A stretch of DNA of 64,000 nt, taken from positions 1 through 64,000 of the forward strand of contig JAOUGX010000008.1 in NCBI GenBank assembly GCA_029865385.1. Direction: 5' to 3'. The position numbers and the translations under genes were made by a program. The stretch's first letter is position 1. The number at the start of each line of letters is the position of its first letter. A model generated the notes under the pieces. That model made no database searches and had not been told where the DNA came from. It saw nothing but the letters and a program-made list of their open reading frames with translations. Positions 6,275 through 63,534 of this stretch are shown piece by piece. The stretch is from Gammaproteobacteria bacterium. GTDB taxonomy: Bacteria; Pseudomonadota; Gammaproteobacteria; Steroidobacterales; Woeseiaceae.

Positions 6275-6664
6275 TTATGTCTCGTTGCCAGTTTCTTGCA
6301 GTAGCAAAGTTACGGCATCTTCCAGCAGCAGTATACGGCCTGTCTTGCTGACCGGTATTGCCAGTTCCCGTGCGATTCCGATCGACCGAAAGTCCCGCAG
6401 CGTTGCAATCTGTCTTCCCTCGTAGCGCTCGCAGAACAACTCCGCCGCGGCAATCAGGTGCGGGCAGGCCAGTGCGTGAAATCGAAGCTCCTTGAGCGTT
6501 CCCTCGTCAATGCCCGCCTCGATCTGCAGGGCAGTCCCGCTGCCGTCATCGACCTTCGCCAGCAGCCTGAGACTGTACTCCCCCCGCAATGCGCCGGCGT
6601 GAACCGGGCTCACAAAATACTGCCGCAGCAACGAGCTGTATGGGTCCTGCGGCGCCATAATCAA
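6275..6664 (-). CDS. Degenerate IscU/NifU-N-like scaffold homologue
   Basis: The protein (129 aa) occupies the iscU position between iscS and iscA and aligns by eye along the length of IscU: LKELRFHALACPHLIAAAEL corresponds to the IscU segment around its second cysteine, and KTGRILLLEDAV to the region before its last helix. Of the three scaffold cysteines and one histidine of IscU, only Cys67 remains. The first Cys region reads KVDDGSG and the His-Cys pair is replaced by Thr-Gly. An extra Cys78 is present. Its ATG overlaps the iscS stop, so it is co-translated. It may be a regulatory or specialised partner of IscS rather than a cluster scaffold; the function is unknown. Confidence 0.7.
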   Translation of the reverse strand: MIMAPQDPYSSLLRQYFVSPVHAGALRGEYSLRLLAKVDDGSGTALQIEAGIDEGTLKELRFHALACPHLIAAAELFCERYEGRQIATLRDFRSIGIARELAIPVSKTGRILLLEDAVTLLLQETGNET

Positions 6665-7848
6665 GCCCGCGTTGCCGTGGCCGTTTCCGGCGGACGGAGT
6701 TTGCCGAGGTGATTTACCGCCCAGCGGAACCGCTCTATGGCCACATCGATATCGTCATTGGTCGTTTCACGACCGAAACTGAAGCGGATTGCGCTCTGTG
6801 CCAGCGCGTCGCTGCGACCCATCGCGCGCAATACGAAGGAGCTCTCGCCGCTTTGGGCATTGCAGGCCGAGCCGCGGGCAACACAGAGCGGCTCCAGCGC
6901 CAGCATAAGGCTCTCGCCATCCACACCTGCAGTACTGACATTCAGAATTCCGGCAAAGGTCTCTTTCTCGTCGCCGTTCCGGCAAAGGCCCGGCAGATCG
7001 CGAATGCCGAGCCACAGGCGTTCGCGAAGTCGGCGGCAATGCGGCAGATCGGCGGCCAGCCGGGATAGAGCGAGTTCCGCTGCAAGACCCAGGCCGAGGA
7101 TCTGGTGAACCGCGTGCGTGCCCGGCCTCCTGCGCCGTTCCTGGGACCCGCCGAAAAGCAGCGGTTCGAGCTGGCAGCCGGGTCGATCTGCGACGAACAA
7201 CGCGCCCGCGCCCTGCGGACCGTAGAACTTGTGGCCGGTCAGTGACAGCAAGTCGATGCCGAGCGCAGCGATGTCTAGCGGCAGCTTGCCGGCCGACTGC
7301 GCCGCATCGCAGTGATACAGAACGTCCCGTCGATGGCAAATGGCGGCGATCGACGCGATATCCTGAATTACGCCGGTTTCGTTGTTGATGTGCATGACCG
7401 AAACCAGCTGCGTGTCGTCGCGAATTGCGGCTTCGAGAAGCTGCGGATCGAGCTTTCCTGATTTGTCCGGATCCAGCCAGGTGACATCGAAGCCCTCACG
7501 TTGCAGGGCCTCGAAACACTCGATGACCGACTTGTGCTCCGTCGTCATCGTGATCAGGTGCTTGCCACGATGAGCCCGATGGCGCGCCGCACCGAAGATA
7601 GCCAGATTGTTTGATTCGGTAGCGCCGGATGTAAAAGCAAGGTCGCGCGGCTCGGCATTCAGCAATGCGCCGACCTGTGCCCTGGCCCGCTCGACGAGCT
7701 CGGCGGATTGTCGGCCGGCCACATGGTTCGACGAGGGATTTGCGAACCCGTACGGCGACTGCAGGCAGTCCGCCATGGCAGCGGCGATTTCACTGTCGAC
7801 TGGCGTAGTCGCAGCGTAATCCAGGTACACGAGGTGCCGCCGATTCAC
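6661..7848 (-). CDS. iscS: Cysteine desulfurase IscS, without the usual C-terminal tail
   Basis: PLP enzyme that takes sulfur from cysteine for Fe-S clusters and tRNA thiolation. The 395 residues show His105 (TTEHKSV), the PLP lysine Lys207 (SLTGHKFYGP) and the persulfide Cys329 (ARGSACNAQSG), all at IscS positions. Sequence similarity to E. coli IscS runs through AIRFSFGRETTNDDID to LGKLRP. After that the conserved C-terminal tail (about 20 residues in E. coli, used in IscU binding) is replaced by a short ETATATRA ending. The ATG overlaps the trmJ stop. No iscR precedes it. Confidence 0.9.
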   Translation of the reverse strand: MNRRHLVYLDYAATTPVDSEIAAAMADCLQSPYGFANPSSNHVAGRQSAELVERARAQVGALLNAEPRDLAFTSGATESNNLAIFGAARHRAHRGKHLITMTTEHKSVIECFEALQREGFDVTWLDPDKSGKLDPQLLEAAIRDDTQLVSVMHINNETGVIQDIASIAAICHRRDVLYHCDAAQSAGKLPLDIAALGIDLLSLTGHKFYGPQGAGALFVADRPGCQLEPLLFGGSQERRRRPGTHAVHQILGLGLAAELALSRLAADLPHCRRLRERLWLGIRDLPGLCRNGDEKETFAGILNVSTAGVDGESLMLALEPLCVARGSACNAQSGESSFVLRAMGRSDALAQSAIRFSFGRETTNDDIDVAIERFRWAVNHLGKLRPPETATATRA

Positions 7849-8570
7849 TGCACGCTCCGGCCGTTCTTGTCCGGATCCAGTGCCGCCAGCATGCCACGCA
7901 GGATGTTGATCTCGTTTTTGTCCGGCAACGCGCGCGCAAACAGCCGTCTCAAGCGCCGCATCAGGTGGCGCGGATTATCGGGTTTGAGAAAGCCGCTGGA
8001 AATCAGGATCTGCTCGAGATGTGTATAAAAATTCTCAAGCTCTTCGGCAGTAGCAAGCGGCGCCTCCGGCGCCTGTTGCAGCAGCTCGGAGCCGACTCGC
8101 GCCATGCGCAGTTCGTAACTCATCACCTGTACCGCCATCGCCAGGTTCAGTGAGCTGAATGTCGGCTCGGTCGGAATCGTCAACAAGGTATGACATCTGT
8201 CGAGGTCTTCGTTGGTAAGGCCGGACTTCTCGGGACCGAAAACAACGGCAACAGACCCTTGCAGGCTTTCCTGAACCAGTCGTGTCGCGCACTCGCGGGG
8301 TGCCATGCTGGGCCAGCCAATGGTTCGCGACCGAGCGCTAGCCCCTGCCACGTAGCTGCAATCTGCAATCGCCTCATCAAGGCTCGATAACACTTTGGCC
8401 GATTCGAGCAGGTCTTCGGCGCCGGACGCCCGGGCGACTGCATCTTCGTGTGGAAAATGCAGCGGGTTCACCAGAAACAGCTCGTCCAGGCCCATGTTTT
8501 TCATCGCGCGCGCCACAGCGCCGATATTGCCCGGATGCGTGGTGCCGACGAGTACGATACGTATTGCCAA
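7845..8570 (-). CDS. trmJ: TrmJ tRNA (Cm32/Um32) 2'-O-methyltransferase
   Basis: SPOUT-class methyltransferase that modifies the ribose of nucleotide 32 in tRNA anticodon loops. The 241 residues begin IRIVLVGTTHPGNIGAVARAMKNMG and carry the SPOUT knot motifs VVFGPEKSGLTNEDLDRC and IPTEPTFSSLNLAMAVQ, plus a C-terminal helical extension. It is divergent from suhB and followed directly by iscS through an ATGA overlap. In E. coli and Pseudomonas iscR (and cysE in Pseudomonas) would stand between them. Confidence 0.94.
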   Translation of the reverse strand: MAIRIVLVGTTHPGNIGAVARAMKNMGLDELFLVNPLHFPHEDAVARASGAEDLLESAKVLSSLDEAIADCSYVAGASARSRTIGWPSMAPRECATRLVQESLQGSVAVVFGPEKSGLTNEDLDRCHTLLTIPTEPTFSSLNLAMAVQVMSYELRMARVGSELLQQAPEAPLATAEELENFYTHLEQILISSGFLKPDNPRHLMRRLRRLFARALPDKNEINILRGMLAALDPDKNGRSVQ

Positions 8571-8685
8571 AACGATTCTCTTTGCCTTGCGGTGGAACTG
8601 CGGGAACGGTCTGCTATTCTAGCGTGCCGTTGGCCGCGAATGTGCCAGCGGTTTGTTCTTTATCAATAGCTGACGGAATCGACTC

Positions 8686-9486
8686 ATGCACGCATTACTC
8701 AACGTGGCGGTGATGGCTGCCCATAGCGGTGGCGACACACTGATTCGCAATATGAACAAGCTCGACAAGATCAAAGTCGAGCAAAAGGGCCGCAATGATT
8801 TCGTCAGTGAAGCCGATCGCAGGGCCGAGCAGGCCGTCATTGCGACGATTCAAAAGCACTATCCGGATCATGCCATTCTCGCGGAGGAAAGCGGCGCTCA
8901 GGGCGAATCGGAATACACCTGGGTTATAGACCCGCTGGACGGCACCACCAATTACCTGCACCGGTTTCCGGTGTTCTGCGTCTCCGTCGGCCTGATGCAC
9001 AAGGGCCGCCTGGAGCACGGCGCTGTCTACGATCCGTTACGCCAGGAGCTGTTTACCGCGTCTCGCGGCCAGGGCGCACACCTGGACGGCCGGCGCATTC
9101 GCGTCAGCGGCATCAAGGCCCTCGATCGCGCACTGATCGGCACGGGCTTTCCGTTCCGCGATTCCAACAAGTCCCTGCCGCCATACCTCAAGATGCTCGA
9201 AAAGGCGATCATGAATACCGCTGGAGTGCGGCGCCCGGGCGCCGCCGCGCTGGACCTTTGCTATGTTGCCGCAGGCAGACTGGATGCGTTCTGGGAAACG
9301 GGCTTAAGCCCCTGGGACCTTGCCGCGGGGGCCCTGATCATTCGCGAAGCCGGGGGCATCGTCAGCGGGCTCGATGGCAGCGAAGGGTTCATGGAGTCCG
9401 GCCATGTGCTGGCCGGTTCGCCGAAAATCTACAGCGCGCTCGCCAGGCTTTTCGGCCCCGATATAAAATCCATGTTTTCAGGCTAG
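8686..9486 (+). CDS. suhB: SuhB inositol-1-monophosphatase family protein
   Basis: Magnesium-dependent phosphatase family; in E. coli SuhB also binds the transcription antitermination complex for rRNA. The 266 residues have metal-site motifs LAEESG (Glu67) and WVIDPLDGTTN (Asp82, Asp85), and the C-terminal SPWDLAAGALIIREAGG. It is the only plus-strand gene in the first 17 kb, divergent from trmJ and convergent with secF (only seven bases between stops). This matches the conserved secF-suhB-trmJ arrangement. Confidence 0.94.
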   Translation: MHALLNVAVMAAHSGGDTLIRNMNKLDKIKVEQKGRNDFVSEADRRAEQAVIATIQKHYPDHAILAEESGAQGESEYTWVIDPLDGTTNYLHRFPVFCVSVGLMHKGRLEHGAVYDPLRQELFTASRGQGAHLDGRRIRVSGIKALDRALIGTGFPFRDSNKSLPPYLKMLEKAIMNTAGVRRPGAAALDLCYVAAGRLDAFWETGLSPWDLAAGALIIREAGGIVSGLDGSEGFMESGHVLAGSPKIYSALARLFGPDIKSMFSG

Positions 9487-9493
9487 CCGCCCG

Positions 9494-10441
9494 TCAGGGC
9501 ATGTCGTCGACCAGGTCCGGGTTTTCTGCCGGCGGCAATAGGTCCTGCGGCGATACCTCCAGGTAAATCGCTGTGGCACTCGCTATGTACACGGATGAAT
9601 ACGTTCCGATCACGATGCCGACTATTAACGCGATGGAAAACGGTCCGACTGACTCGCCGCCAAAGAGAAACAAGGCGAATAACACAAACAGTGTTGTCAA
9701 TGCCGTGATGATAGTTCGCGACAGCACTTCATTGACCGATTTGTTCATGCTGTCTTCCACGCTCATGCCACGCAAGCGAACGAAATTTTCGCGAATGCGG
9801 TCGAAGGTCACGACAGTATCATTCAGCGAATAACCAATTACCGCCAGTACGGCAGCAACAACAGTCAGGTCGAACGGCAAATAGAAAATCGAGAAAAATC
9901 CAATGGTCACGATGACGTCGTGCGCTGTCGCAATGACTGCGCCGGCCGCGAATTTCCACTGGAAACGGAACATGACGTACGCGAATATCATCAGGAGCGT
10001 GAATATCATCGCGAGCCCGCCTTTCTCCGTTAATTCCTTGCCGACTTGCGGACCCACGAATTCCACCCGACGCAACTCGACATTCGGCTCGTCGCTGGCC
10101 AGCGCATTCCGCAAGCGTCTTCGAATGTCATCCGGATCCGCGTTTTCCTGCGGCGGAAGGCGCAACATGACATCCGTCGCAGGTCCGAAACGCTGCGCCT
10201 GAACATCGGCAAATCCTGCATCGCGCAACAGGCCACGAATCTTGTTCAGATCGGCGGGCTCCGGATATCCGACTTCGAGCAGCACACCACCGGTAAAATC
10301 GATTCCAAAATTCAAACCTCGAACGCCAAGAGAAATGAATGTCGCGATAGTAAGAATGACGGTAAAAGTTACTGCAATGGTCCTGGTTCTGCGACCCAGA
10401 AAATTGATGGACGTGTTGTCTTTAACAATCTTGATAATCAT
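9494..10441 (-). CDS. secF: SecF protein-export membrane subunit
   Basis: SecF with SecD uses the proton gradient to complete protein export through SecYEG. From the ATG at 10441, four bases after the secD stop, the protein has 315 residues: an N-terminal membrane segment (TIAVTFTVILTIATFISLG), the FGIDFTGGVLLEV motif, a periplasmic P1-like domain and five further membrane segments including YSLNDTVVTFDRIRENF. An in-frame ATG 13 codons upstream lies inside secD and is unlikely. Last gene of queA-tgt-yajC-secD-secF. Confidence 0.95.
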   Translation of the reverse strand: MIIKIVKDNTSINFLGRRTRTIAVTFTVILTIATFISLGVRGLNFGIDFTGGVLLEVGYPEPADLNKIRGLLRDAGFADVQAQRFGPATDVMLRLPPQENADPDDIRRRLRNALASDEPNVELRRVEFVGPQVGKELTEKGGLAMIFTLLMIFAYVMFRFQWKFAAGAVIATAHDVIVTIGFFSIFYLPFDLTVVAAVLAVIGYSLNDTVVTFDRIRENFVRLRGMSVEDSMNKSVNEVLSRTIITALTTLFVLFALFLFGGESVGPFSIALIVGIVIGTYSSVYIASATAIYLEVSPQDLLPPAENPDLVDDMP

Positions 10442-10445
10442 AGCG

Positions 10446-12257
10446 TTATACCGGGACGCGGGAGATCTTCCGACCGCCAAAAATCAGATTAATAACGGTA
10501 CGCGTACCGACAATAGCCGTGAACATGGACGTGACAATTCCGAGAGACAGTGTCACTGCGAACCCTTTGACCGGCCCGGTTCCGAAAGCAAAAAGCACGA
10601 TGGCCGCGATCAGCGTCGTGATATTGGCGTCCGCTATAGAAGACAGCGCTTTTTCGTAGCCGCCATTGATACTCACCTGAGGCGGACTCCCGGCAGCAAC
10701 TTCCTCCCGTATTCGTTCAAAAATCAGCACGTTGGCGTCGATTGCCATGCCGACGGTCAATACGATCCCCGCTATACCCGGCAGCGTCAGGGACGCCTGC
10801 AACAAGCCTAGCAATGCGACGATAAATACAACGTTGGAAAACAATGCAAGGCTTGCGATAACTCCAAACCAGTTGTAGTAGATTACGGTGAACAGGACGA
10901 CGACCACAAATCCAATGACGACCGCCTGGAAACCCCGATCGATGTTGTCCTGCCCGAGACTCGGGCCGATGGTTCTTTCTTCGACCTTGTAAACTGGCGC
11001 CGCTAATGCACCGGCGCGCAGCAACAACGCCAGGTCGCGCGCCTCGACCGGCGTCAGCCCGGTGGTCTGGAAGCGATCCTTGAATATGCCGCGAATCGTT
11101 GCCGTGTTGATGATCTCTTCGCTGCGAACGGTGCGATATTCCGTTTCACCATTGACAATAACCGGTTCACGGCGGGTTTCGATAAACACGGTCGCCATCG
11201 GTTTGTTGACGTTGACCCGCGTCGTCTCCAGCATGTTTTCGCCGCCCGCGGCGTCCAGCGTGATGAAGACGGCAGGCTGACCCTCGCTGAAGCCGGATTC
11301 GGCATGAATGATCTGATCGCCCGACGCGATAACCTCGCGCTTAAGTATCTGCGACTGTATGCCTTCGCGGCCGGGATAACGTCGCGAACCCGGACTGTTG
11401 CCGTCTACGTCGACGAGGCGAAACTCCAGGGTCGCGGTTGCCGTCAGGATTTCATCGAGCTGGTTCGGATCCTGTACGCCGGGTAATTGCACGACGATGC
11501 GGTCGAGGCCCTGCCTTTGCACCACGGGTTCCGATACGCCCAACTGGTTGACGCGATTGCGCAGAGTGGTGATATTTTGCTCGAGCGCAAAATCCTGCCG
11601 CGCGGAGATTTGCACCTCGCTCATGCGAACCTGCAACGACCGCCCGTCCACGCCGTCGAATATCAGCAACTCCGGATCCGCATCACTGATGATATCGCGA
11701 GACGGTTCTATGTCCTCTTCGCCTTGCAGACGAACCGTGATGACTCCGTCGTCGACGTCAACTCGATGCCGAATACCCGCCTCGCGTAGCCGATTCTCGA
11801 AGTCTTGCTGATAGCTGTTCAGGCGTTTAGCAATCGCATCCGCCATGTCGACTTCGAGCAGAACGTGGACGCCGCCACGAAGATCCAGTCCGAGGCTCAT
11901 CGGCCGGAGTCCGATCTCGCGAATCCAGGCAGGCAGCTTGGGCGTCAATGTCAACGCAACGGTGGCTTCACGCAGGAAACTCTGACGCAAGCTGTCTCCC
12001 GCAGCGGCCTGGTCCTCGACACTAGTGAAGCGAAACACCACCCTGCCGTCCTCGATGTAAGCCGCTTCTGCCTCGATGTCCAACTCCGTCAAGACGGCCG
12101 AGAAGCGTTCAATCTGCATCTCGTCCAACGCACGACCGTCACTGTTCGCGACCTGTACCGCCGGCACGGTACCGTAAATGTTGGGCATGGCCAGCAGGAT
12201 GCCGATCAGGAGAATGGCCAGCACAAGCCAATTGAGCCACGTCGGATAGCGATTCAT
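10446..12257 (-). CDS. secD: SecD protein-export membrane subunit
   Basis: Partner of SecF and YajC in the Sec holotranslocon, driving late steps of export. The 603 residues show an N-terminal membrane segment (about 9-29), the GLDLRGGVHVLLEVDMADA motif, the large periplasmic domain with TLRNRVNQLGVSEPVVQRQG, and a five-helix C-terminal membrane domain that includes GMAIDANVLIFERIREE. Length and order agree with family members. It is followed immediately by secF and preceded by yajC. Confidence 0.96.
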   Translation of the reverse strand: MNRYPTWLNWLVLAILLIGILLAMPNIYGTVPAVQVANSDGRALDEMQIERFSAVLTELDIEAEAAYIEDGRVVFRFTSVEDQAAAGDSLRQSFLREATVALTLTPKLPAWIREIGLRPMSLGLDLRGGVHVLLEVDMADAIAKRLNSYQQDFENRLREAGIRHRVDVDDGVITVRLQGEEDIEPSRDIISDADPELLIFDGVDGRSLQVRMSEVQISARQDFALEQNITTLRNRVNQLGVSEPVVQRQGLDRIVVQLPGVQDPNQLDEILTATATLEFRLVDVDGNSPGSRRYPGREGIQSQILKREVIASGDQIIHAESGFSEGQPAVFITLDAAGGENMLETTRVNVNKPMATVFIETRREPVIVNGETEYRTVRSEEIINTATIRGIFKDRFQTTGLTPVEARDLALLLRAGALAAPVYKVEERTIGPSLGQDNIDRGFQAVVIGFVVVVLFTVIYYNWFGVIASLALFSNVVFIVALLGLLQASLTLPGIAGIVLTVGMAIDANVLIFERIREEVAAGSPPQVSINGGYEKALSSIADANITTLIAAIVLFAFGTGPVKGFAVTLSLGIVTSMFTAIVGTRTVINLIFGGRKISRVPV

Positions 12258-20556: not shown

Positions 20557-20572
20557 TGTGATTGCGGTCACA
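20557..20572. promoter_or_regulatory. CRP/Vfr-type binding site 1
   Basis: TGTGATTGCGGTCACA matches the CRP consensus TGTGA-N6-TCACA at all ten positions. It is centred about 172 bases upstream of the acyltransferase start at 20737 and points towards a global cAMP-dependent (or FNR-family) regulator. No such regulator gene lies in the window. Confidence 0.65.
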
Positions 20573-41332: not shown

Positions 41333-43888
41333 ATGGCCAACACCACATGGCTCTTGTCAATCGGGACCGCAGGCACGAACGCGGCCCGCTTTTTGCTGAA
41401 ATTGTCGGCAGCCACGCTGGCTTTTACTGCGTCTTCGACGTCCGTACTGGCGCAGGACGAGCAGATGATTATCGAAGAGATCATCGTCATGGCGACCAAG
41501 CGCGAACAGACTTTGCAGGAAGTCCCGGTTGCCGTATCTGTGGTAAGCGCCCAAACGATGCAGAAAGCGCAGATCCTGGACATCAAGGACCTTCAAAGCA
41601 TCGTGCCGTCGCTGCGTGTAACGCAGCTGCAGACCACCGGCAATACCAACTTCATCATTCGCGGTTTTGGTAATGGCGCCAACAACGCCGGAATCGAGCC
41701 CTCGGTCGGCGTATTCGTAGACGGCGTGTATCGCTCCCGCTCGGCGTCGGCACTGTCGGACCTGCCGAACCTGGAGCGCGTCGAGGTACTGCGCGGGCCG
41801 CAGAGCACGCTGTTCGGCAAGAACGCGTCGGCCGGCGTAATCAACGTCGTCACCGCCCGGCCCGACCTGTCAGGATTCGGCGGATCGACTTCGCTGACCC
41901 TGGGCGAATGGAACCAGGTCATCGTCAAGGGCGACGTCACTGGACCGCTGTCGGATTCCGTGGCTTTCAGCCTTTCGGGCAGCGTCAACAATCGCGACGG
42001 TTACTACACCAACCTGGTGGATGGGGTCGAATACGGCGACAGGGATCGCTGGGGCGTGCGTGGCCAGTTGCTGATCGTGCCAAATGACAAACTCGAAATG
42101 CGCTTCATCGCCGACTACGACGAGATGGACGAAGTCTGCTGCGGCGTCGCCAACCTGGTCGACGGCCCGACCGGCAATGCCATACGCGCACTGGGTGGCA
42201 ACCTGGTCGGCAACCAACCGTTTGCATACCAGAACTATTACGACTTCAACCCGACAAACCAGGTTGACAACAGCGGCATCTCGATGCAAATCGACTACGA
42301 CTTCGAGTCGATGGTGCTGACTTCGATCACTGCCTACCGCAACCAGTCCCGGTTCGAGAACAGCGATGTGGATTTCACCAGCGCAAGACTGATCAATCCG
42401 AACTCCAACGACACCGAGCTGGACACTTTCACGCAGGAGCTTCGCCTGACTTCGAACGGTGACGGCGCGGTCGACTGGATGGTTGGTGGCTACTACTTCG
42501 ATGAGGAAGTCGAGATCAACAACGTGCTGACCTACAGCAGCGATTTCCGCAACTATGCCGACCTGCTCGCCGCCGGCAACGTTTCCGCTCTCGAAGCGGG
42601 CCTGGGCTTGCCCGCCGGCACGTTCTTCGCGAGCGGTCAGGGCAATTTCGAGAACGCCGGCCAGGACGACAGGTCCTATTCCGTTTTCGGCCAGATCGAC
42701 TGGCATATGACGGACCGGGTCACGATGACCCTGGGTGCCAACTACACCAACGACAAGAAAGACGCGTTCGTCAACATGAACAACACCGATGTGTTCTCGT
42801 CACTCAGCATGGTGCAGGTCGGGTTCGGACTGGCCTTCCAGCAGCTCACCGGATTGCCTCCGACGCCACAAAACATCGCCGCGAATCCCGCCGCCGCCGC
42901 CCAGGCCCAGGCGCTTAGTACAACTTCGTGCTCGGCGCAAAATCCGCCGCCAGGATGCAACCAGTTGCTGGCGTTGCGGCCCTTGCAGTTCCTGCCGCCC
43001 TTCGTCGGCTACCCGAACGCGGTGGAATCCGGCAATTCCAACGATAGCAAGACCACGTGGACCGCAAGACTGGCTTTTGACTGGACTGACAACGTCAACG
43101 TCTACCTCGGCGCGGGCACCGGTTTCAAAGCCACGTCATGGAACCTGTCGCGCGATTCCCGGCCGTTCGCCTCGGACATTGCGGCAATCAATTCGGCTGG
43201 CCTCGGTGTCAACAACCTCGTTGCCGGCACGCGTTATGCCGGGCCAGAGGACTCGACGGTTTACGAAATCGGCCTGAAAGCCAGGTTCGACCGCGGCGCC
43301 GTCAACGTTGCCATCTTCGACCAGGAAATCGAGGGCTTCCAGTCCAACATATTCACCGGAACCGGCTTTGCGCTCGCCAACGCCGGCAAACAGTCGACGA
43401 CAGGTATCGAGCTTGATGCGACATGGGTTCCGACGGATGCGCTGGAACTGACCTTCTCCGGTACCTGGCTGGATCCAACCTATGACGATTTCCAGGGTGC
43501 AAGCGGCATCGGCGGGTTGCCCGTGGACCTCAGTGGCGGTGACGTACCGGGCGTGCACAAGTTCAGCATGAATACCTCGGCCACGTACAACTTCGACATC
43601 GGTGCCAACATGAGCGGCTTTGTGCGCGGCGAGTACATTTACGACGACAAAGTCAGGATCATCGAAAACGTGCCGGAAGATGTCGCGTCGCGCGACGTCA
43701 GCATGGTCAACGCAAGTTTCGGGCTGCAATGGGCAAACGGCTTCGAAGCCATGCTGTGGGGCCGTAACCTGACGGACGATCAATTTCTGTTGTCGGCATT
43801 CCCGTCGGTTGCCCAGGCAGGCAGCTACAGCGGCTACCCGAGCGAGCCGCGGACCTACGGCGTAACATTCCGCATGAATTTCGAGTAG
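41333..43888 (+). CDS. TonB-dependent outer-membrane receptor
   Basis: A 22-strand beta-barrel receptor of 851 residues for high-affinity uptake driven by TonB. It has a signal peptide (to about VLAQDE), a TonB-box-like EEIIVMATKREQ, the plug domain (QEVPVAVSVVSAQTM, VEVLRGPQSTLFGKNASAG, GVINVV) and the barrel ending in YGVTFRMNFE. TTTTGGGGGA precedes the ATG 41333. Two adjacent cysteines (EVCCGV) and a Cys pair in a loop (SCSAQN, GCNQ) may form disulfides. The substrate is unknown. Its own terminator follows. Confidence 0.93.
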   Translation: MANTTWLLSIGTAGTNAARFLLKLSAATLAFTASSTSVLAQDEQMIIEEIIVMATKREQTLQEVPVAVSVVSAQTMQKAQILDIKDLQSIVPSLRVTQLQTTGNTNFIIRGFGNGANNAGIEPSVGVFVDGVYRSRSASALSDLPNLERVEVLRGPQSTLFGKNASAGVINVVTARPDLSGFGGSTSLTLGEWNQVIVKGDVTGPLSDSVAFSLSGSVNNRDGYYTNLVDGVEYGDRDRWGVRGQLLIVPNDKLEMRFIADYDEMDEVCCGVANLVDGPTGNAIRALGGNLVGNQPFAYQNYYDFNPTNQVDNSGISMQIDYDFESMVLTSITAYRNQSRFENSDVDFTSARLINPNSNDTELDTFTQELRLTSNGDGAVDWMVGGYYFDEEVEINNVLTYSSDFRNYADLLAAGNVSALEAGLGLPAGTFFASGQGNFENAGQDDRSYSVFGQIDWHMTDRVTMTLGANYTNDKKDAFVNMNNTDVFSSLSMVQVGFGLAFQQLTGLPPTPQNIAANPAAAAQAQALSTTSCSAQNPPPGCNQLLALRPLQFLPPFVGYPNAVESGNSNDSKTTWTARLAFDWTDNVNVYLGAGTGFKATSWNLSRDSRPFASDIAAINSAGLGVNNLVAGTRYAGPEDSTVYEIGLKARFDRGAVNVAIFDQEIEGFQSNIFTGTGFALANAGKQSTTGIELDATWVPTDALELTFSGTWLDPTYDDFQGASGIGGLPVDLSGGDVPGVHKFSMNTSATYNFDIGANMSGFVRGEYIYDDKVRIIENVPEDVASRDVSMVNASFGLQWANGFEAMLWGRNLTDDQFLLSAFPSVAQAGSYSGYPSEPRTYGVTFRMNFE

Positions 43889-57033: not shown

Positions 57034-57525
57034 TCAGGATTTCTGGCAGGCCTTGCAAAGGCCCTGGATCTCGAGCATCTGGTGAACGGCGGCAAAGCCA
57101 AGATCGGCTGCGGCTCTGTTGACGACGTCGCTGATGGCCGAATCATCCAGCTCCGCGACAGATCGACAACCCCGACAAATGAGGAACTGGCCACTGTGAG
57201 AACTGGACGGATCCGCACACCCGACAAAGGCGTTGAGCGAATCCAGCCTGTGAACCAGCTCGGCTTCGATCAGGAATTCCAGCGCCCGGTAGACGGTCGG
57301 CGGCGCGGCCTTGCGACCCTCCCGGTTGAGCTTTTCCAGGATATCGTAGGCTCCAACCGGCTTATGGCTGGTCCAGACCAGTTCCAGAACGCGCTTTCGC
57401 AGCTGGGTGAAACGCAGCCCCTTGTCATGGCAGAGCTTGTCTGCTGTTTCCAGTGCCTGCGCCACGCAGTCGCCGTGGTCGTGCAGCTGAGGAGGAAAGG
57501 CGCCTGCAATTGTCGCGTCGTTCAT
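57034..57525 (-). CDS. Fur-family repressor, Zur-like
   Basis: A 163-residue metalloregulator. The winged helix contains [15 protein letters not shown] and [19 protein letters not shown]. The C-terminal part has two CxxC pairs for a structural zinc (CRGC and CKAC, near the end) and the sensor histidines in [10 protein letters not shown]. The pattern, with an acidic/His-rich N-terminus (HDHGDC), fits Zur better than Fur. From ATG 57525 the length is normal. No zinc transporter genes are in the window, and I did not find a Zur box. Confidence 0.83.
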
Positions 57526-57631
57526 TCTATAAATCCCGATGATCTTGCCCGCTGATTGTACACGCCACCCGGCACGAATCCGGCCATCCGCTGCAGCGGC
57601 GTGGCGGGAATTCCCCGACATTGGCATTCGT

Positions 57632-57659
57632 TTGGCACCGATGGCGGATTGGGTACAAT
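57632..57659 (+). promoter_or_regulatory. Sigma-70-type promoter of thrS
   Basis: TTGGCA (57632-57637), 16-base spacer, TACAAT (57654-57659). The thrS ATG lies 38 bases after the -10, giving a leader of roughly 30 bases. The gene is therefore probably not controlled by a long structured leader as in E. coli. Confidence 0.55.
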
Positions 57660-57697
57660 AGCGCGCCTCGACATTAGCGACTACCGAAACCCTGGAT

Positions 57698-59620
57698 ATG
57701 CCTACCATTCGACTGCCCGACGGTTCCGAGCGGCAAATCGCTGCCGGCGCGACCGGAACCGATATTGCCCAAAGCATTGGCAAAAGCCTGGCGCGAGATT
57801 CTGTCGCCATCCGTGTGAACGGTGAGTTGCGGGACCTGTCGAGAACCGTCGACGCCGATGCCACCATCGAGATCGTTACCCGGGACTCTGCGGAGGGGCT
57901 CGAGCTGCTGCGACACGACGCGGCCCATGTGTTGGCGGAAGCGGTCAAGGAACTCTGGCCGACGACCCAGGTCACCATCGGCCCGGCTATCGAGAACGGC
58001 TTCTATTACGACTTTGCCCGCGACGAAGCGTTTACCGCCGAGGATCTCGAAATCATTGAAGGACGAATGAAAGAGATCGTTGCCAGGGATGAAACCATCG
58101 ATCGAGAAGTCTGGGATCGTGATGACGCGGTCAAATTTTTTCGCGAACAGGGCGAAGAATACAAAGCAAAGATCATCGAGGACATACCCGCTGGCGAAAC
58201 GCTGACCTTGTACCGGCAGGGTCAGTTCATCGACCTGTGCCGCGGGCCCCACCTGCCATCGACCGGACGTCTTGGAAGTGCGTTCAAGCTCCTAAGGGTT
58301 TCCGGCGCATACTGGCGGGGCGATGCAAAAAACGCGATGTTGCAGCGAATTTACGGTACAGCCTGGGCCAATGACAAGCAGCTGCGCGCCTACCTGACGC
58401 AATTGGAAGAAGCGGAAAAACGGGACCATCGCCGGCTCGGCAGAATTATGGACCTCTTCCATTTTCAGGAAGAAGCACCCGGCGCCGTGTTCTGGCATCC
58501 GAAGGGCTGGAGCCTGTTCCAGAACCTGGTCGACTATATGCGCAAGCGTCAGGCCGCGGCCGGCTACCACGAGGTCAATACGCCTGAATTAATGGATCGC
58601 ACACTGTGGGAAGCATCCGGCCATTGGGAATCTTTTGGCGAGCACATGTTCACCACCGTGACCGAGGACGGCCGCAGTTTTGCGATCAAGCCGATGAACT
58701 GCCCCGGTCATGTGCAGGTATTCAAGCAGGGCATTACCAGCTACCGGGAGCTTCCGTACCGCCTGTGCGAGTTCGGCAAAGTGCATCGTTACGAGCCGTC
58801 TGGCGCATTGCACGGCATGCTGCGCGTGCGTGCATTTACGCAGGACGACGCTCATATTTTTTGTACGCCGGAACAAATCAGTAATGAAACCGTGGCTGTA
58901 TGCGAATTGATCCTTGGCATCTATCGTGATTTCGGTTTCGATGATGTACTGATCAAATTTGCCGATCGGCCACCGGTTCGTGTTGGTGACGACGAGGTGT
59001 GGGACCAGGCAGAAGCAGCGCTCAAAGCCGGTCTCGAGACGGCCGGGCTCGATTACAGTTACAACCCGGGCGAAGGGGCATTCTATGGGCCGAAACTCGA
59101 ATTCGTGTTGCGCGATGCGATCGGGCGCGACTGGCAGTGCGGTACCCACCAGGTCGACCTGAATCTGCCGAAACGCCTCGGCGCCACTTATATTGGCGAG
59201 GATGGGCAAAAGCACATTCCGGTGCTGCTGCATCGGGCGATTTTCGGTTCACTGGAACGCTTCATCGGCATTCTGCTCGAACATCACGCGGGAAACTTGC
59301 CGCTCTGGCTCGCACCGACGCAGGCTAAAGTTCTGACGATAACTTCCGACGCCAACGACTACGCGCTGGACGTCGTGTCCCGCCTGCGGGACGCGGGTAT
59401 CAGCGCAGATGCGGATCTCCGTAACGAAAAAATTTCGTACAAGGTTCGCGAACACAGCGTTGCAAAGGTGCCCGTATTGATGGCTGTCGGGCAACGCGAA
59501 GTCGATGAAAAGACGGTAGCACTGCGCCGACTGGGATCGAAACAACAGCAGGTCGTCGAACTGGATAGAGCCATCCTGCAACTGCGTGACGAGATTCGCC
59601 AGCGCGGACGCGCCGCCTGA
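57698..59620 (+). CDS. thrS: Threonyl-tRNA synthetase
   Basis: Class II synthetase of 640 residues with the full domain set: TGS (1-61), the editing domain with [16 protein letters not shown] and the [10 protein letters not shown] zinc-editing motif, the catalytic core ([48 protein letters not shown]) and the C-terminal anticodon domain ([16 protein letters not shown]). In most gammaproteobacteria infC-rpmI-rplT follows. Here a receiver/TonB gene comes next, 200 bases downstream. Confidence 0.97.
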
Positions 59621-59820
59621 CCAACGCCGATTCGCGCACAGTTTCATCCGACCCGGCCCGGCCGACCAAACGTGACACCGCCTGCATTCTGACTGTGCTG
59701 CTCGTCACAGATTCCGAATCTTGTCGGAAGACAGCGACAAAACCTCCAGCGCCCGCCTATATACTCGCTCAACGCAAAGTTCGAAACTGCGATTGGACAT
59801 AAGCCCCCCAGGAGGGTGAA

Positions 59821-62745
59821 GTGGCGCTGGAGTACTTCAAGACACAGGTTCTGTTGCTGCACAGTCAACAGAGCACTCTCGATTCACTGAGCAGCGGTTT
59901 CAATGATCGTTACGCTGTGCATTGTGCAACTACTGGTTCCGAGGCGCTTTCGACTCTTGGCGTAACTCCTATACATGTCATCGTCTCCGCGCAAGATCTT
60001 CCTGGCATGAGTGGCCTGGATGCACTGCGTGAAGCCAAAAAAAGATCGCCGGAAACAATCGGCATCCTGCTTGCCGGTCGTGACCAGAGTGACGGACTGG
60101 AAGCACTTGTCGGCGAAAAAGAAGTTTTCCAGATCGTACGTGGCGATGTGACACCCGAATCTCTGCGTAGCCTGATTGACGCAGCAACGAAACAGGCTCG
60201 CCTGATCGCATTGTCCGAATCCGCGAACGATACCGCGGCCAACGTCGACGAGCCGATGGGCGAACATATTGTCATGGAGACGTCGGAAAATGGCTCCGCG
60301 ATCATAAGCGATGGCACGGGCACAATGCCCGCTTTGAAACCACAGAAAATTCAGATTGGTGCAGAGGTCGGCAGCCGCGGCGTCGACATCCTGGTGTTGA
60401 CGAAGGACGAGGAATTTCTCGCCACCATCAAAGACTCCGCGCGCGGATTGCACAAAGTGCACCATGCAATCACACCGTCGCAGGCGGAAGGGTTTTTCAA
60501 GGAAAACAAGATCGGCATATTGGTAACCGACGCCGCGATGGTTGGCTCGAATATCGAAGTTCTGACGCAACGCCTCAGGATCTTCGTGCCGCGCCTGGTT
60601 GCCATCGTTGCGGGACGTCGCGATGACGGTGAATTGTTGATGGACCTGATCAACCGCGGACAGGTCTATCGCTTCCTGCTCAAGCCGGTATCGCCGGGTA
60701 GAGCGCGACTGGCAATCGAAGCCTCGATCAAGCATCACCTCGAAGCCGCGGACGGCGCATTCAAGCCGGTTGCCGGGAAACCGGCAGGTGCGGCGGCGGC
60801 GAAGCTTGCAGCGCCCCCGGCAAGACCACCGCAAAACGCTCCTGCCAAACCACGGCAAGCAACGCCGGCCAAACCACCTGCGAAACCAGTGGCCGCAACA
60901 AAGCCGGTTCGCAAAGCACCGACGATTTCGGGATCGCCGATCAGTGACGGACTCGATGATGCCTTCGGCGATGACAGCAGTTTCACCGAAACGATGACTG
61001 GCATAGCCACGAGCATCGGCAAGTCGCTCACAGGCGGCAGTCGCAAAGCAGCGGAAGCTGTAACAAAGAGTGCAAGAGTTGAAAAAACGGCGGATTCCGG
61101 CGGAACGTCCGCATTCCTTCGGTCGCCGAAGGTCATTGCTGCCACTGCCGGCCTGCTGCTCCTGCTGGTCGCGGGTCTGTGGCTCTTTTCCGGCCCCGAT
61201 GCAATCGACAGCCCTCCTGAAGCCGTCGATGCCAAACCTGCAATGCCGGAAGACGAATCCGTACCTCGCGTGGTGGAGTCCGGGCTGCCGGCGCCGTCGA
61301 CGAGCGCGGTAGAAGCCATAGCCGAACCGGCTTACACGGCTCTTCTCGACGAAGCACGAATTGCGCGCAATGCCGGCGAAGTCATCGCACCGGCGGGCAG
61401 CAGCGCGGTAGAACTTTATATCGCCGCACGTGACGCGGCTCCGGACGACATCGTCATTGCAAACGAGTTGGCAGACCTGGTCGACCAGGTCCTTGGTATG
61501 GCCGAGGCAGCGTTACTCGCACAGAAAACCAAAGATGCAGATGCTGCAATCAGCATGGTTCGCCTTGCAACACCTGAAAACCCTAGACTGGCGTTCCTGG
61601 ATGCCCAGCTGGCGCAATTGAAATTTCGAAGTGCACTCGACGAGGCGCGCTCGGCATTGCGTGAAAAACGATTTGAAGATGCAGCAAAACAACTCGCCAT
61701 CGCGAAACTTGTCCGCGGAGTCGACCAGACTGAGGTTCGCCTGCTGACAGAGGAACTGGCCGGTGCGAAGAGCGAGCAAAGAATCGACGAGGTTCTGGCG
61801 CTCGCAGCAAGCCGGCTCGAAAGCGACAATCTGACCAGTCCTTCGAATGACAACGCCCGCTATTACTACGAGCTGGCACTCGGAAACGATCCAAAGAATA
61901 CGGCTGCGCAACAGGGACTGATTATCGTCGCCGGAAAACTGGTACTGAAAGCGCGCAGTGCCATCGACAGTGGCCAGCTGGACCAGGCAGGGATTCTGTT
62001 GCGGGACGCCAGCGCGCTGGATCCGGACAGCAGCGAACTGGCGGCGTCCGCGGCGGCGCTGCAGAACGCTCGCCAGGCGCAAGCTGATGCCGAACGCCAG
62101 ACAGAACTCGAACGACAGGCAGCCGCCGAGCGTAAAGCCGCGGCCGAACGCCAGGCCGATGCGGAGCGAAAAGCCGCTGCTGAACGCCTGGCCGAGGCAG
62201 AGAGAAAGGCCGCCGCTACTGCCGCTGCGGGCGGATCGGCAAAGGCGGCACCATCCGGCGCAGGGCCTGCCGGCAGCGCGTCTGCAAACTCTGCGGTTCC
62301 GGGAGCAAGTCAGGCGGGTTTGCAGCGTGAACCCGCTGCCGCCAATCCGGCCGGGACGGCGGAAGCTTCGCTGGCCGCCGCAGCCCGCAGGGTAACGCAG
62401 CAGGACGGGGAGTCGGTTGCACAGGAAACCCCCGCTACTGCCAGTGCCGAACCGCAAGCACCGGAAATGGTCGGTATCACGACGCTCAATCGCACGCGTT
62501 ATGTGTCGCCGAAATATCCGCGCAGCGCGATGCGCCGCGGAATCACTGGTTACGTGGATGTTCGTATGACCATTGCCCGCGACGGCAGCGTCTACGACAT
62601 TGAGGTGCTGGATGCCAAGCCGGAGACCGTTTTCAATGAGGCGGCACTGGAAGCGGTTCAGCAATGGCAATTCGAACCGGTTCTGGAAGGCAATGTGCCG
62701 GTGGAAAAGCGGACAGCGGTCCGGATGGCGTTCGAACTCCAGTAA
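59821..62745 (+). CDS. Receiver-TPR-TonB fusion protein of unusual architecture
   Basis: A 974-residue protein (GTG after AGGAGGGTGAA). In order: a receiver-like domain (8-125) in which the phospho-acceptor Asp is Ala57 (VIVSAQDLPGMSG) and the conserved Lys is Arg107; a second receiver-like domain (187-305) that keeps Asp237 (ILVTDAAMVGS) and Lys288 (FLLKPV); a Pro/Ala/Lys-rich linker (315-365); one membrane segment (438-457, AATAGLLLLLVAGLWLF); TPR-like helices (about 505-750); an AERKAAAER-type coiled coil (755-800); a Gly/Ala-rich linker; and a TonB C-terminal domain (890-974, YVSPKYPRSAMRRGITGYVD). Inferred topology: receivers inside, TonB part in the periplasm. I know no named family with this layout. 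It may transmit a cytoplasmic signal to an outer-membrane or cell-wall partner, or supply TonB energy under control. Confidence 0.85.
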   Translation: MALEYFKTQVLLLHSQQSTLDSLSSGFNDRYAVHCATTGSEALSTLGVTPIHVIVSAQDLPGMSGLDALREAKKRSPETIGILLAGRDQSDGLEALVGEKEVFQIVRGDVTPESLRSLIDAATKQARLIALSESANDTAANVDEPMGEHIVMETSENGSAIISDGTGTMPALKPQKIQIGAEVGSRGVDILVLTKDEEFLATIKDSARGLHKVHHAITPSQAEGFFKENKIGILVTDAAMVGSNIEVLTQRLRIFVPRLVAIVAGRRDDGELLMDLINRGQVYRFLLKPVSPGRARLAIEASIKHHLEAADGAFKPVAGKPAGAAAAKLAAPPARPPQNAPAKPRQATPAKPPAKPVAATKPVRKAPTISGSPISDGLDDAFGDDSSFTETMTGIATSIGKSLTGGSRKAAEAVTKSARVEKTADSGGTSAFLRSPKVIAATAGLLLLLVAGLWLFSGPDAIDSPPEAVDAKPAMPEDESVPRVVESGLPAPSTSAVEAIAEPAYTALLDEARIARNAGEVIAPAGSSAVELYIAARDAAPDDIVIANELADLVDQVLGMAEAALLAQKTKDADAAISMVRLATPENPRLAFLDAQLAQLKFRSALDEARSALREKRFEDAAKQLAIAKLVRGVDQTEVRLLTEELAGAKSEQRIDEVLALAASRLESDNLTSPSNDNARYYYELALGNDPKNTAAQQGLIIVAGKLVLKARSAIDSGQLDQAGILLRDASALDPDSSELAASAAALQNARQAQADAERQTELERQAAAERKAAAERQADAERKAAAERLAEAERKAAATAAAGGSAKAAPSGAGPAGSASANSAVPGASQAGLQREPAAANPAGTAEASLAAAARRVTQQDGESVAQETPATASAEPQAPEMVGITTLNRTRYVSPKYPRSAMRRGITGYVDVRMTIARDGSVYDIEVLDAKPETVFNEAALEAVQQWQFEPVLEGNVPVEKRTAVRMAFELQ

Positions 62746-62847: not shown

Positions 62848-63534
62848 GTGGCCAGCGCGCGGCGAAATAACGACAAGAAAGACTCGAGCCAGTCAACCCG
62901 CAAGCAGCAAGAACGCAGTATCCGGACTCAGGAAAAGCTGCTGGAGGCTGCGCTGCAGGCGTTTTCTGAAAACGGATTCAAGGGCACGTCGACTCGGGAC
63001 ATCGCCGACAGGGCGGGCGTGCATCACCCGCTAATTACCTACCATTTCAAGAACAAGGAAGAGCTGTGGCGCGCCGCCGCGGACAGGGTATTCAGAAGAT
63101 TCAATTCCGAGTTGCTGCAGACCCTCGAGCACAACTCCGAAAAGTGCGCGAAAACTCGAATGGCAGCAATGATTCGCGCTTACGTGCACTACGCCGCCAA
63201 ACACCCGGCCCTGCATAAGGTAATCGTTCAGGAAGCAAGTTTTTCGAGCGCCCGGCTGGACTGGCTCACCAAGACCCACCTGAGGCCATTGTTCAAGGAA
63301 GCGGTCGTCTACATAGAACAACTGCAGGATCTCGGTGTCGCACCGCAGGGCGATCCGGCGCTGCTCTTCAATATGATTCGCGTATCTTCGGGCGGGCTTC
63401 TCGCACTCGCGCAGGAAATCAAAAGCACTACCAACGTCGATCTCGACGCACCGGGCGCCGTCGATGCTCTCGCCGACATGATTATTTCGGTATTTCTGCC
63501 GGGTGACATGCCGGAGAACATGCGATTCGCTTAA
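62848..63534 (+). CDS. TetR-family transcriptional regulator
   Basis: A 228-residue regulator starting at GTG 62848 (GTGGAG seven bases upstream). The N-terminal helix-turn-helix is LEAALQAFSENGFKGTSTRD with IADRAGVHHPLITYHF and KNKEELWRAAADR. The C-terminal ligand domain is of the TetR_C type found in regulators of fatty-acid or steroid genes (KTRMAAMIRAYVHYAAKHPAL). It follows the receiver-TonB gene by 102 bases and is convergent with xdhC. The targets are unknown. Confidence 0.9.
   Translation: MASARRNNDKKDSSQSTRKQQERSIRTQEKLLEAALQAFSENGFKGTSTRDIADRAGVHHPLITYHFKNKEELWRAAADRVFRRFNSELLQTLEHNSEKCAKTRMAAMIRAYVHYAAKHPALHKVIVQEASFSSARLDWLTKTHLRPLFKEAVVYIEQLQDLGVAPQGDPALLFNMIRVSSGGLLALAQEIKSTTNVDLDAPGAVDALADMIISVFLPGDMPENMRFA

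Follow-up and report, generated by a model that had tools for sequence, protein, structure and literature searches.

Can a signal held in the bacterial cytoplasm be carried across the cell envelope by a single protein? The question is raised by one gene in a 64,000-nucleotide stretch of DNA (positions 1–64,000 of contig JAOUGX010000008.1, assembly GCA_029865385.1; herein referred to as the window) from a gammaproteobacterium of the family Woeseiaceae, whose product joins two receiver folds, a membrane helix, helical repeats and a TonB C-terminal domain (TonB_C) in one chain (herein referred to as the fused protein). DNA and enzymes are the usual targets of response regulators, and the fused protein looks like an undescribed way for cytoplasmic signaling to cross the envelope; no description of a receiver–TonB_C protein was found in the literature searched, which left out most subscription journals.

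The best explanation we can offer, and one that we hold tentatively, is that the fused protein sits in the inner membrane as a TonB-type trans-envelope protein and carries a pair of nonphosphorylated pseudo-receivers at its cytoplasmic end. Its grounds, established by sequence analysis and structure prediction, are the domain architecture, the lost phosphorylation chemistry, the strong conservation, the colinear homology to a kinase-linked pair of proteins and the conserved promoter.

A Widely Conserved Gene in Woeseiaceae

The fused gene is real and old. It is one 974-codon frame with a GTG start that occupies exactly positions 59821–62745 (+) in the list of open reading frames, behind a ribosome-binding site (table 1), as an initial sequence-only reading of the window had described. 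A scan of named genomes recovered 69 loci with a recognizable copy, of which 58 encode at least 800 residues (our definition of a near-full-length ortholog). An assembly error or chance fusion, which that reading had raised as a possible source of the N-terminal part, is ruled out by these 58 orthologs, in which the parts are likewise joined, and by the conservation of the two neighbors it had pointed to: among loci with enough contig on the relevant side, 61/62 have thrS upstream in the same orientation and 55/57 have tetR downstream.

The gene was found in 21/25 genomes of the same family, and the four genomes without it (G005, G015, G019, and G022) all belong to one Woeseiaceae genus with genomes of 1.3 to 2.0 Mb. 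When an order-wide sample was queried with residues 1–310 of the fused protein, matches were obtained in 11/12 genomes of the family and in one genome only outside it, where the match sits in a response regulator of the split type described below; within this sample, the fused form thus characterizes Woeseiaceae. The most divergent fused protein (genome G008, locus L038, positions 2–2458; 44% over the receivers) ends at a contig edge.

Domain Architecture and Predicted Folds

Pfam assigns TonB_C (PF03544) to residues 896–973 (E = 1.3e-19, above the curated cut-off) and Response_reg to two stretches (E = 1.6e-9), and both families were matched in 51/51 proteins of the ortholog alignment. An AlphaFold2 model built from these 51 aligned orthologs places confident receiver folds at residues 8–136 and 189–308, a helix at 436–456, helical hairpin repeats at 505–798 (pLDDT about 95–98) and a TonB_C fold at 891–971, with linkers between the domains predicted to be disordered; the helical part folded in isolation reached a pLDDT of 94.7. 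The domain order that had been read from the letters (two receivers, a membrane segment at residue 438, helices, and a TonB C-terminus) is thus borne out by Pfam and/or AlphaFold, including a receiver fold in each of the two N-terminal regions. Foldseek matches the receivers to solved receivers, among them HupR (TMt 0.82) and PleD, and for the C-terminus it finds the FoxA-bound TonB domain of Pseudomonas (PDB 6i97_D, TMt 0.91, rmsd 1.0), such that the fused protein has the receiver fold of response regulators by both AlphaFold and Foldseek and a TonB_C domain by both Pfam and fold match.

The helices had been called tetratricopeptide repeats (TPRs), a designation that survives in part. The structural matches of the helical region are weak and mostly of TPR type or to designed repeats, the best solved ones being TPR superhelices (E about 5e-3), but in sequence TPR_19 was found in just 5/51 and TPR_2 in 1/51 aligned orthologs, and we therefore grade the region as TPR-like. 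By inspection of the sequence, basic residues precede the membrane helix and acidic residues follow it, which is consistent with an N-in, C-out topology, and the earlier placement of both receivers in the cytoplasm is supported by the single internal membrane helix.

Receivers That Lack Phosphorylation Chemistry

Signature residues were counted in the 58 near-full-length orthologs with CheY (D12, D13, D57, T87, and K109) as reference. Every signature position of receiver 1 is replaced (H14 in 55/58, S15 in 53/58, A57 in 55/58, A85 in 53/58, and G108 in 55/58, the remainder of the 58 being mostly gaps), and receiver 2 carries replacements at three positions (T194 in 53/58, K195 in 41/58, and A264 in 58/58) while retaining D237 and K288 in 58/58. 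Beside the acidic-pair positions of receiver 2, D196 is invariant (58/58), as are R266, R267, and D269 in the orthologs. Neither receiver 1 (H, S, A, A, G) nor receiver 2 (T, K, D, A, K) therefore presents the residue set of a phosphorylation-competent response regulator (acidic pair, Asp, Thr/Ser, Lys), and the proposal of the sequence-only reading that receiver phosphorylation is the signal finds no support.

Loss of these residues is accompanied by strong conservation. Receivers 1 and 2 show mean pairwise identities of 70% and 75%, and an inter-receiver motif (residues 146–172) also reaches 75%, against 63% in TonB_C, 51% in the helical repeats and 22 to 47% across the membrane helix and the remaining linkers (34% for residues 311–372). 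The inter-receiver motif is predicted to be disordered, yet it is as conserved as receiver 2. Since the receivers are among the most conserved parts of the fused protein, the notion that they are relics under relaxed selection is ruled out; judged from these residues, the receivers have lost their chemistry and retained their surfaces. If true, the fused protein offers a natural experiment in which phospho-switch chemistry disappears while the surface stays under strong selection.

A Kinase-Bearing Operon Homologous to the Fused Gene

The same parts occur elsewhere in the order as a split three-gene unit that encodes a histidine kinase (DAHL-like sensor region, HisKA, and HATPase), then a double-receiver protein of about 440 residues, and then a TonB_C protein in which a short N-terminus and a single membrane helix precede the helical repeats. 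Six families of the order yielded about 17 complete units, one of them in the window's own genome (table 1), and the genes that flank them vary among examples, so that the three genes are the unit. The earlier suggestion of an orphan system thereby holds in one respect only: no kinase gene adjoins the fused gene in the open reading frame and gene lists of the window and the ortholog loci, as had been noted, but the same genome has this homologous kinase/double-receiver/TonB_C operon with an intact receiver 1.

Split receiver 1 carries all five signature residues (D, D, D, T, and K) in 16/19 proteins, and split receiver 2 shows a T/S-x-D degeneracy like that of the fused protein in most. In a phylogenetic tree, receivers 1 and 2 separate at 100/100 with fused and split members in each; fused receiver 2 sequences lie on one side of a branch supported at 93/73, and split receiver 2 sequences group at 100/99. 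The fused gene is colinear with the split double-receiver and TonB_C genes, and hhalign finds the helical region of the fused protein homologous to that of the split TonB_C proteins (E = 4.9e-28). A third form, found in other families of the order, is a single protein made of receiver 2, the membrane helix, the helical repeats and TonB_C, with homology along its length (E = 1.2e-71).

Because two fusion forms exist, the double-receiver protein likely interacts physically with the TonB_C protein, and because the fused gene runs colinearly with the second and third genes of the split unit, a pathway that leads from kinase to receiver to TonB-type protein is probably real; the fused gene probably represents a hard-wired, phosphorylation-independent branch. 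The three-gene operon is the more general and testable discovery of the two.

Among the third-form loci, L045, L046, L048, L052, and L055 each encode a degenerate receiver 2, a membrane helix and repeats, and TonB_C was seen in L045, L046, L052, and L055. At L175, L176, L177, L178, and L180, a kinase is followed by two separate receiver-domain proteins, an arrangement related to, and distinct from, the TonB_C-bearing unit. An IV[ML]x[EG]D motif is shared in the linker of split response regulators (8/16 vs. 0.17 expected); it was found post hoc and is only suggestive.

A Conserved CRP-Type Promoter

The fused gene appears to have its own conserved CRP-type promoter. In the 130 bases upstream of the orthologs, TGTGC-N6-TCACA occurs in 52/56 regions (0.03 expected by shuffling) and a TATACT-like hexamer in 55/56, and the center of the CRP-type site lies exactly 58 nt before the −10 hexamer in 49/52. 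This spacing places the site near −70.5, the geometry of a class I CRP promoter. The window's genome encodes CRP (equivalog score of 318.6 bits vs. a cut-off of 266), CRP-type sites also precede 5/15 split operons (0.014 expected), and the genomes without the fused gene, all of one genus, are also without a full CRP (4/4). A perfect CRP-type palindrome, TGTGATTGCGGTCACA, lies elsewhere in the window, at 20557–20572, away from the fused gene.

Proposed Mechanism and Alternatives

We propose that, in the split system, the kinase would phosphorylate receiver 1 and the double-receiver protein may use its degenerate receiver 2 to engage the TonB_C protein's cytoplasmic end at the membrane, an engagement that could alter how the periplasmic helical arm and TonB_C meet outer-membrane TonB-box proteins. 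In the fused protein, the contact between receivers and TonB_C would be built in, permanent and phosphate-free; the pseudo-receivers and the conserved linker motif may form a docking or ligand-binding platform, and control would have shifted to expression via CRP–cAMP, that is, to carbon limitation. These steps could together define a new class of two-component output, a possibility that we advance with reserve, in which a kinase and a double-receiver protein directly control a TonB-family trans-envelope protein and convey phosphorylation state to outer-membrane partners without transcription, and to which Woeseiaceae would have added a fused, phosphate-free, CRP-controlled version. If true, the receiver-to-TonB_C link would give the bacterial cytoplasm a direct switch over the contact of the inner with the outer membrane. 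As Woeseiaceae are a widespread group of marine sediments, the system may bear on their uptake or processing of organic carbon.

Several points weigh against this explanation. The partners at either end of the fused protein, the direction of signaling (inside-out or outside-in) and the coupling to the outer membrane are all inferred. TonB_C domains are also present in proteins unrelated to transport, and a fusion seen in a paralog argues for interaction without proving it. Binding by CRP is predicted solely from the site and its spacing, and in the genus that has neither the fused gene nor a full CRP the genomes are reduced, a confounder of the co-occurrence. The membrane helix of the fused protein shows no His or Ser conserved among the orthologs, in contrast to the Ser/His motif of Escherichia coli TonB; the exbBD-linked TonB of the same genome is without this motif too, so that the motif does not discriminate for ExbBD coupling and the test was abandoned.

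The fused protein might instead be an ordinary TonB transducer driven by ExbB/ExbD, with pseudo-receivers that serve only for positioning or stability. Its well-formed TonB_C, close to the FoxA-bound TonB domain, would suit such a role, as would a genome with nine MotA/ExbB-family matches, ten TonB_C matches and 32 TonB-dependent receptor plugs. That genome, however, has short TonB proteins adjoining exbBD, hence the fused protein is not needed as a general TonB, and no ExbB homolog was found on the contig of the fused gene, in agreement with the earlier remark that no exbBD adjoins it; the missing Ser/His motif is, as said, nondiscriminating. The four genomes without the fused gene still hold 6 to 15 plug domains, which also leaves unsupported the idea that TonB receptors depend on this gene. 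TonB proteins in general are without a cytoplasmic domain (PMC8262864), whereas in the AlphaFold model the helix comes after 435 residues that hold two receiver folds, in place of the short cytoplasmic N-terminus of TonB. We consider this alternative unlikely. It is also rather improbable that the fused protein is still a phospho-switch, in which an unlinked kinase phosphorylates receiver 2 on the strength of D237 and K288 and receiver 1 is a mere adaptor. The invariance of D237, K288, and D196 (58/58) and the pairing of an active with an adaptor receiver in PleD, the top structural match, speak for it, but the Mg-binding acidic pair has become T194/K195 and the switch Thr A264 in nearly all orthologs, the homologous receiver 2 is already degenerate in the split systems, whose intact receiver is receiver 1, and no kinase adjoins the fused gene.

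Two further alternatives concern what the pseudo-receivers bind. At the threshold used, several genomes carry the fused gene and no split relative, and the kinase-contacting alpha-1 helix of receiver 1 differs, by eye, from that of split receiver 1; both observations count against an outside-in protein, the helical arm and TonB_C of which would sense the state of the envelope while the pseudo-receivers signal inward, for instance by sequestering the split kinase or response regulator. Receiver folds devoid of chemistry can serve as docking surfaces, and fused and split systems do coexist in one genome; nevertheless, we regard this direction of signaling as very unlikely. We give equally little credence to gating of the TonB_C arm by a small molecule such as cyclic di-GMP (c-di-GMP). 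The precedent is ShkA, in which a pseudo-receiver with a c-di-GMP site is combined with a conserved inter-receiver motif (PMC7010744), and the 75% identity of the inter-receiver motif and the invariant R266, R267, and D269 fit such gating, although an RxxD run alone is weak evidence.

Comparison With Known Systems

The TonB/ExbBD transducer resembles the fused protein in its C-terminal fold, single membrane helix and periplasmic spacer; it differs in that the fused protein has a large cytoplasmic part with two receiver folds, has TPR-like repeats where TonB has a Pro-rich rod alone, and has no exbBD adjoining. Double-receiver regulators of the PleD type share the tandem receivers, one of them degenerate. 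PleD itself pairs an active receiver with an adaptor, and it is the split homolog that has such a live/adaptor pair; in the fused form both receivers are degenerate, a long disordered linker separates them and the output is a membrane/periplasmic TonB_C arm instead of a GGDEF enzyme, no GGDEF match being found with Pfam. The colinear split operon of the same order, of which the literature searched likewise gave no description, differs from the fused gene by its separate genes, adjacent kinase and intact receiver 1.

GltJ/GltG (AgmX) of Myxococcus gliding likewise combine a membrane helix, a periplasmic helical domain and TonB_C in a modular TolA/TonB-like arrangement (PMC5349195). The fused protein shares the single membrane helix, the periplasmic helical domain and TonB_C, unlike them has receivers, which are not reported there, and lacks Agl/Glt neighbors; it scores 17.4 bits with the AgmX/PglI model NF033768 (cut-off of 40) and so falls outside that family. 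ShkA is comparable in that its receiver fold performs no phosphotransfer and comes with a conserved inter-receiver motif, but its pseudo-receiver sits in a hybrid histidine kinase and has a known ligand.

Features of the Locus and Its Surroundings

Table 1. Coordinates of the fused gene, its parts and associated features. Positions refer to the window, except those of the split unit, which refer to contig C9 of the same genome.
Feature	Position	Strand	Basis
thrS, conserved upstream neighbor	57698..59620	+	synteny among ortholog loci
CRP-type site TGTGC-N6-TCACA upstream of the fused gene	59694..59709	+	conserved in ortholog upstream regions
−10 hexamer TATACT, putative own promoter of the fused gene	59760..59765	+	conserved hexamer
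Ribosome-binding site AGGAGGG, 5' of the GTG start	about 59810..59816	+	read in sequence; start region conserved across orthologs
Fused gene: pseudo-receiver 1, pseudo-receiver 2, membrane helix, helical repeats, TonB_C	59821..62745	+	open reading frame, orthologs, synteny
Receiver 1, residues 8–130, dead	59842..60210	+	Pfam, AlphaFold, residue counts
Inter-receiver linker with conserved motif SANDT...EHIVMETSENGSxIISDGTG, residues 134–174	60220..60342	+	predicted disordered
Receiver 2, residues 187–308, degenerate	60379..60744	+	AlphaFold, residue counts
Ala/Pro/Lys-rich cytoplasmic linker, residues 311–435	60751..61125	+	low pLDDT
Single transmembrane helix, residues 436–456	61126..61188	+	AlphaFold helix; hydrophobic in all orthologs
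Periplasmic TPR-like helical repeats, long helix at end, residues 505–798	61333..62214	+	pLDDT about 95; structural matches; hhalign
TonB C-terminal domain, residues 890–973	62488..62739	+	Pfam 1.3e-19; PDB 6i97_D TMt 0.91
TetR-family regulator, conserved downstream neighbor	62848..63534	+	TetR_N 5.2e-16
Split unit L039 (contig C9), kinase	6663-8582		
Split unit L039 (contig C9), double receiver	8527-9888		
Split unit L039 (contig C9), TonB_C protein	9899-11212		

In many loci, a Fur/Zur-family gene diverges from thrS (window positions 57034–57978 and 57698); through it, zinc might conceivably act on thrS and the fused gene. On the other side, XdhC adjoins tetR, an arrangement conserved in many loci; at locus L054 (3571–7634), the genes past tetR form a cluster of XdhC, CoxE, AAA, and FAD-binding proteins that is typical of molybdenum hydroxylases. 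One of the 32 TonB-dependent receptor plugs of the genome lies within the window, at 41513–41839 (E = 8.4e-22).

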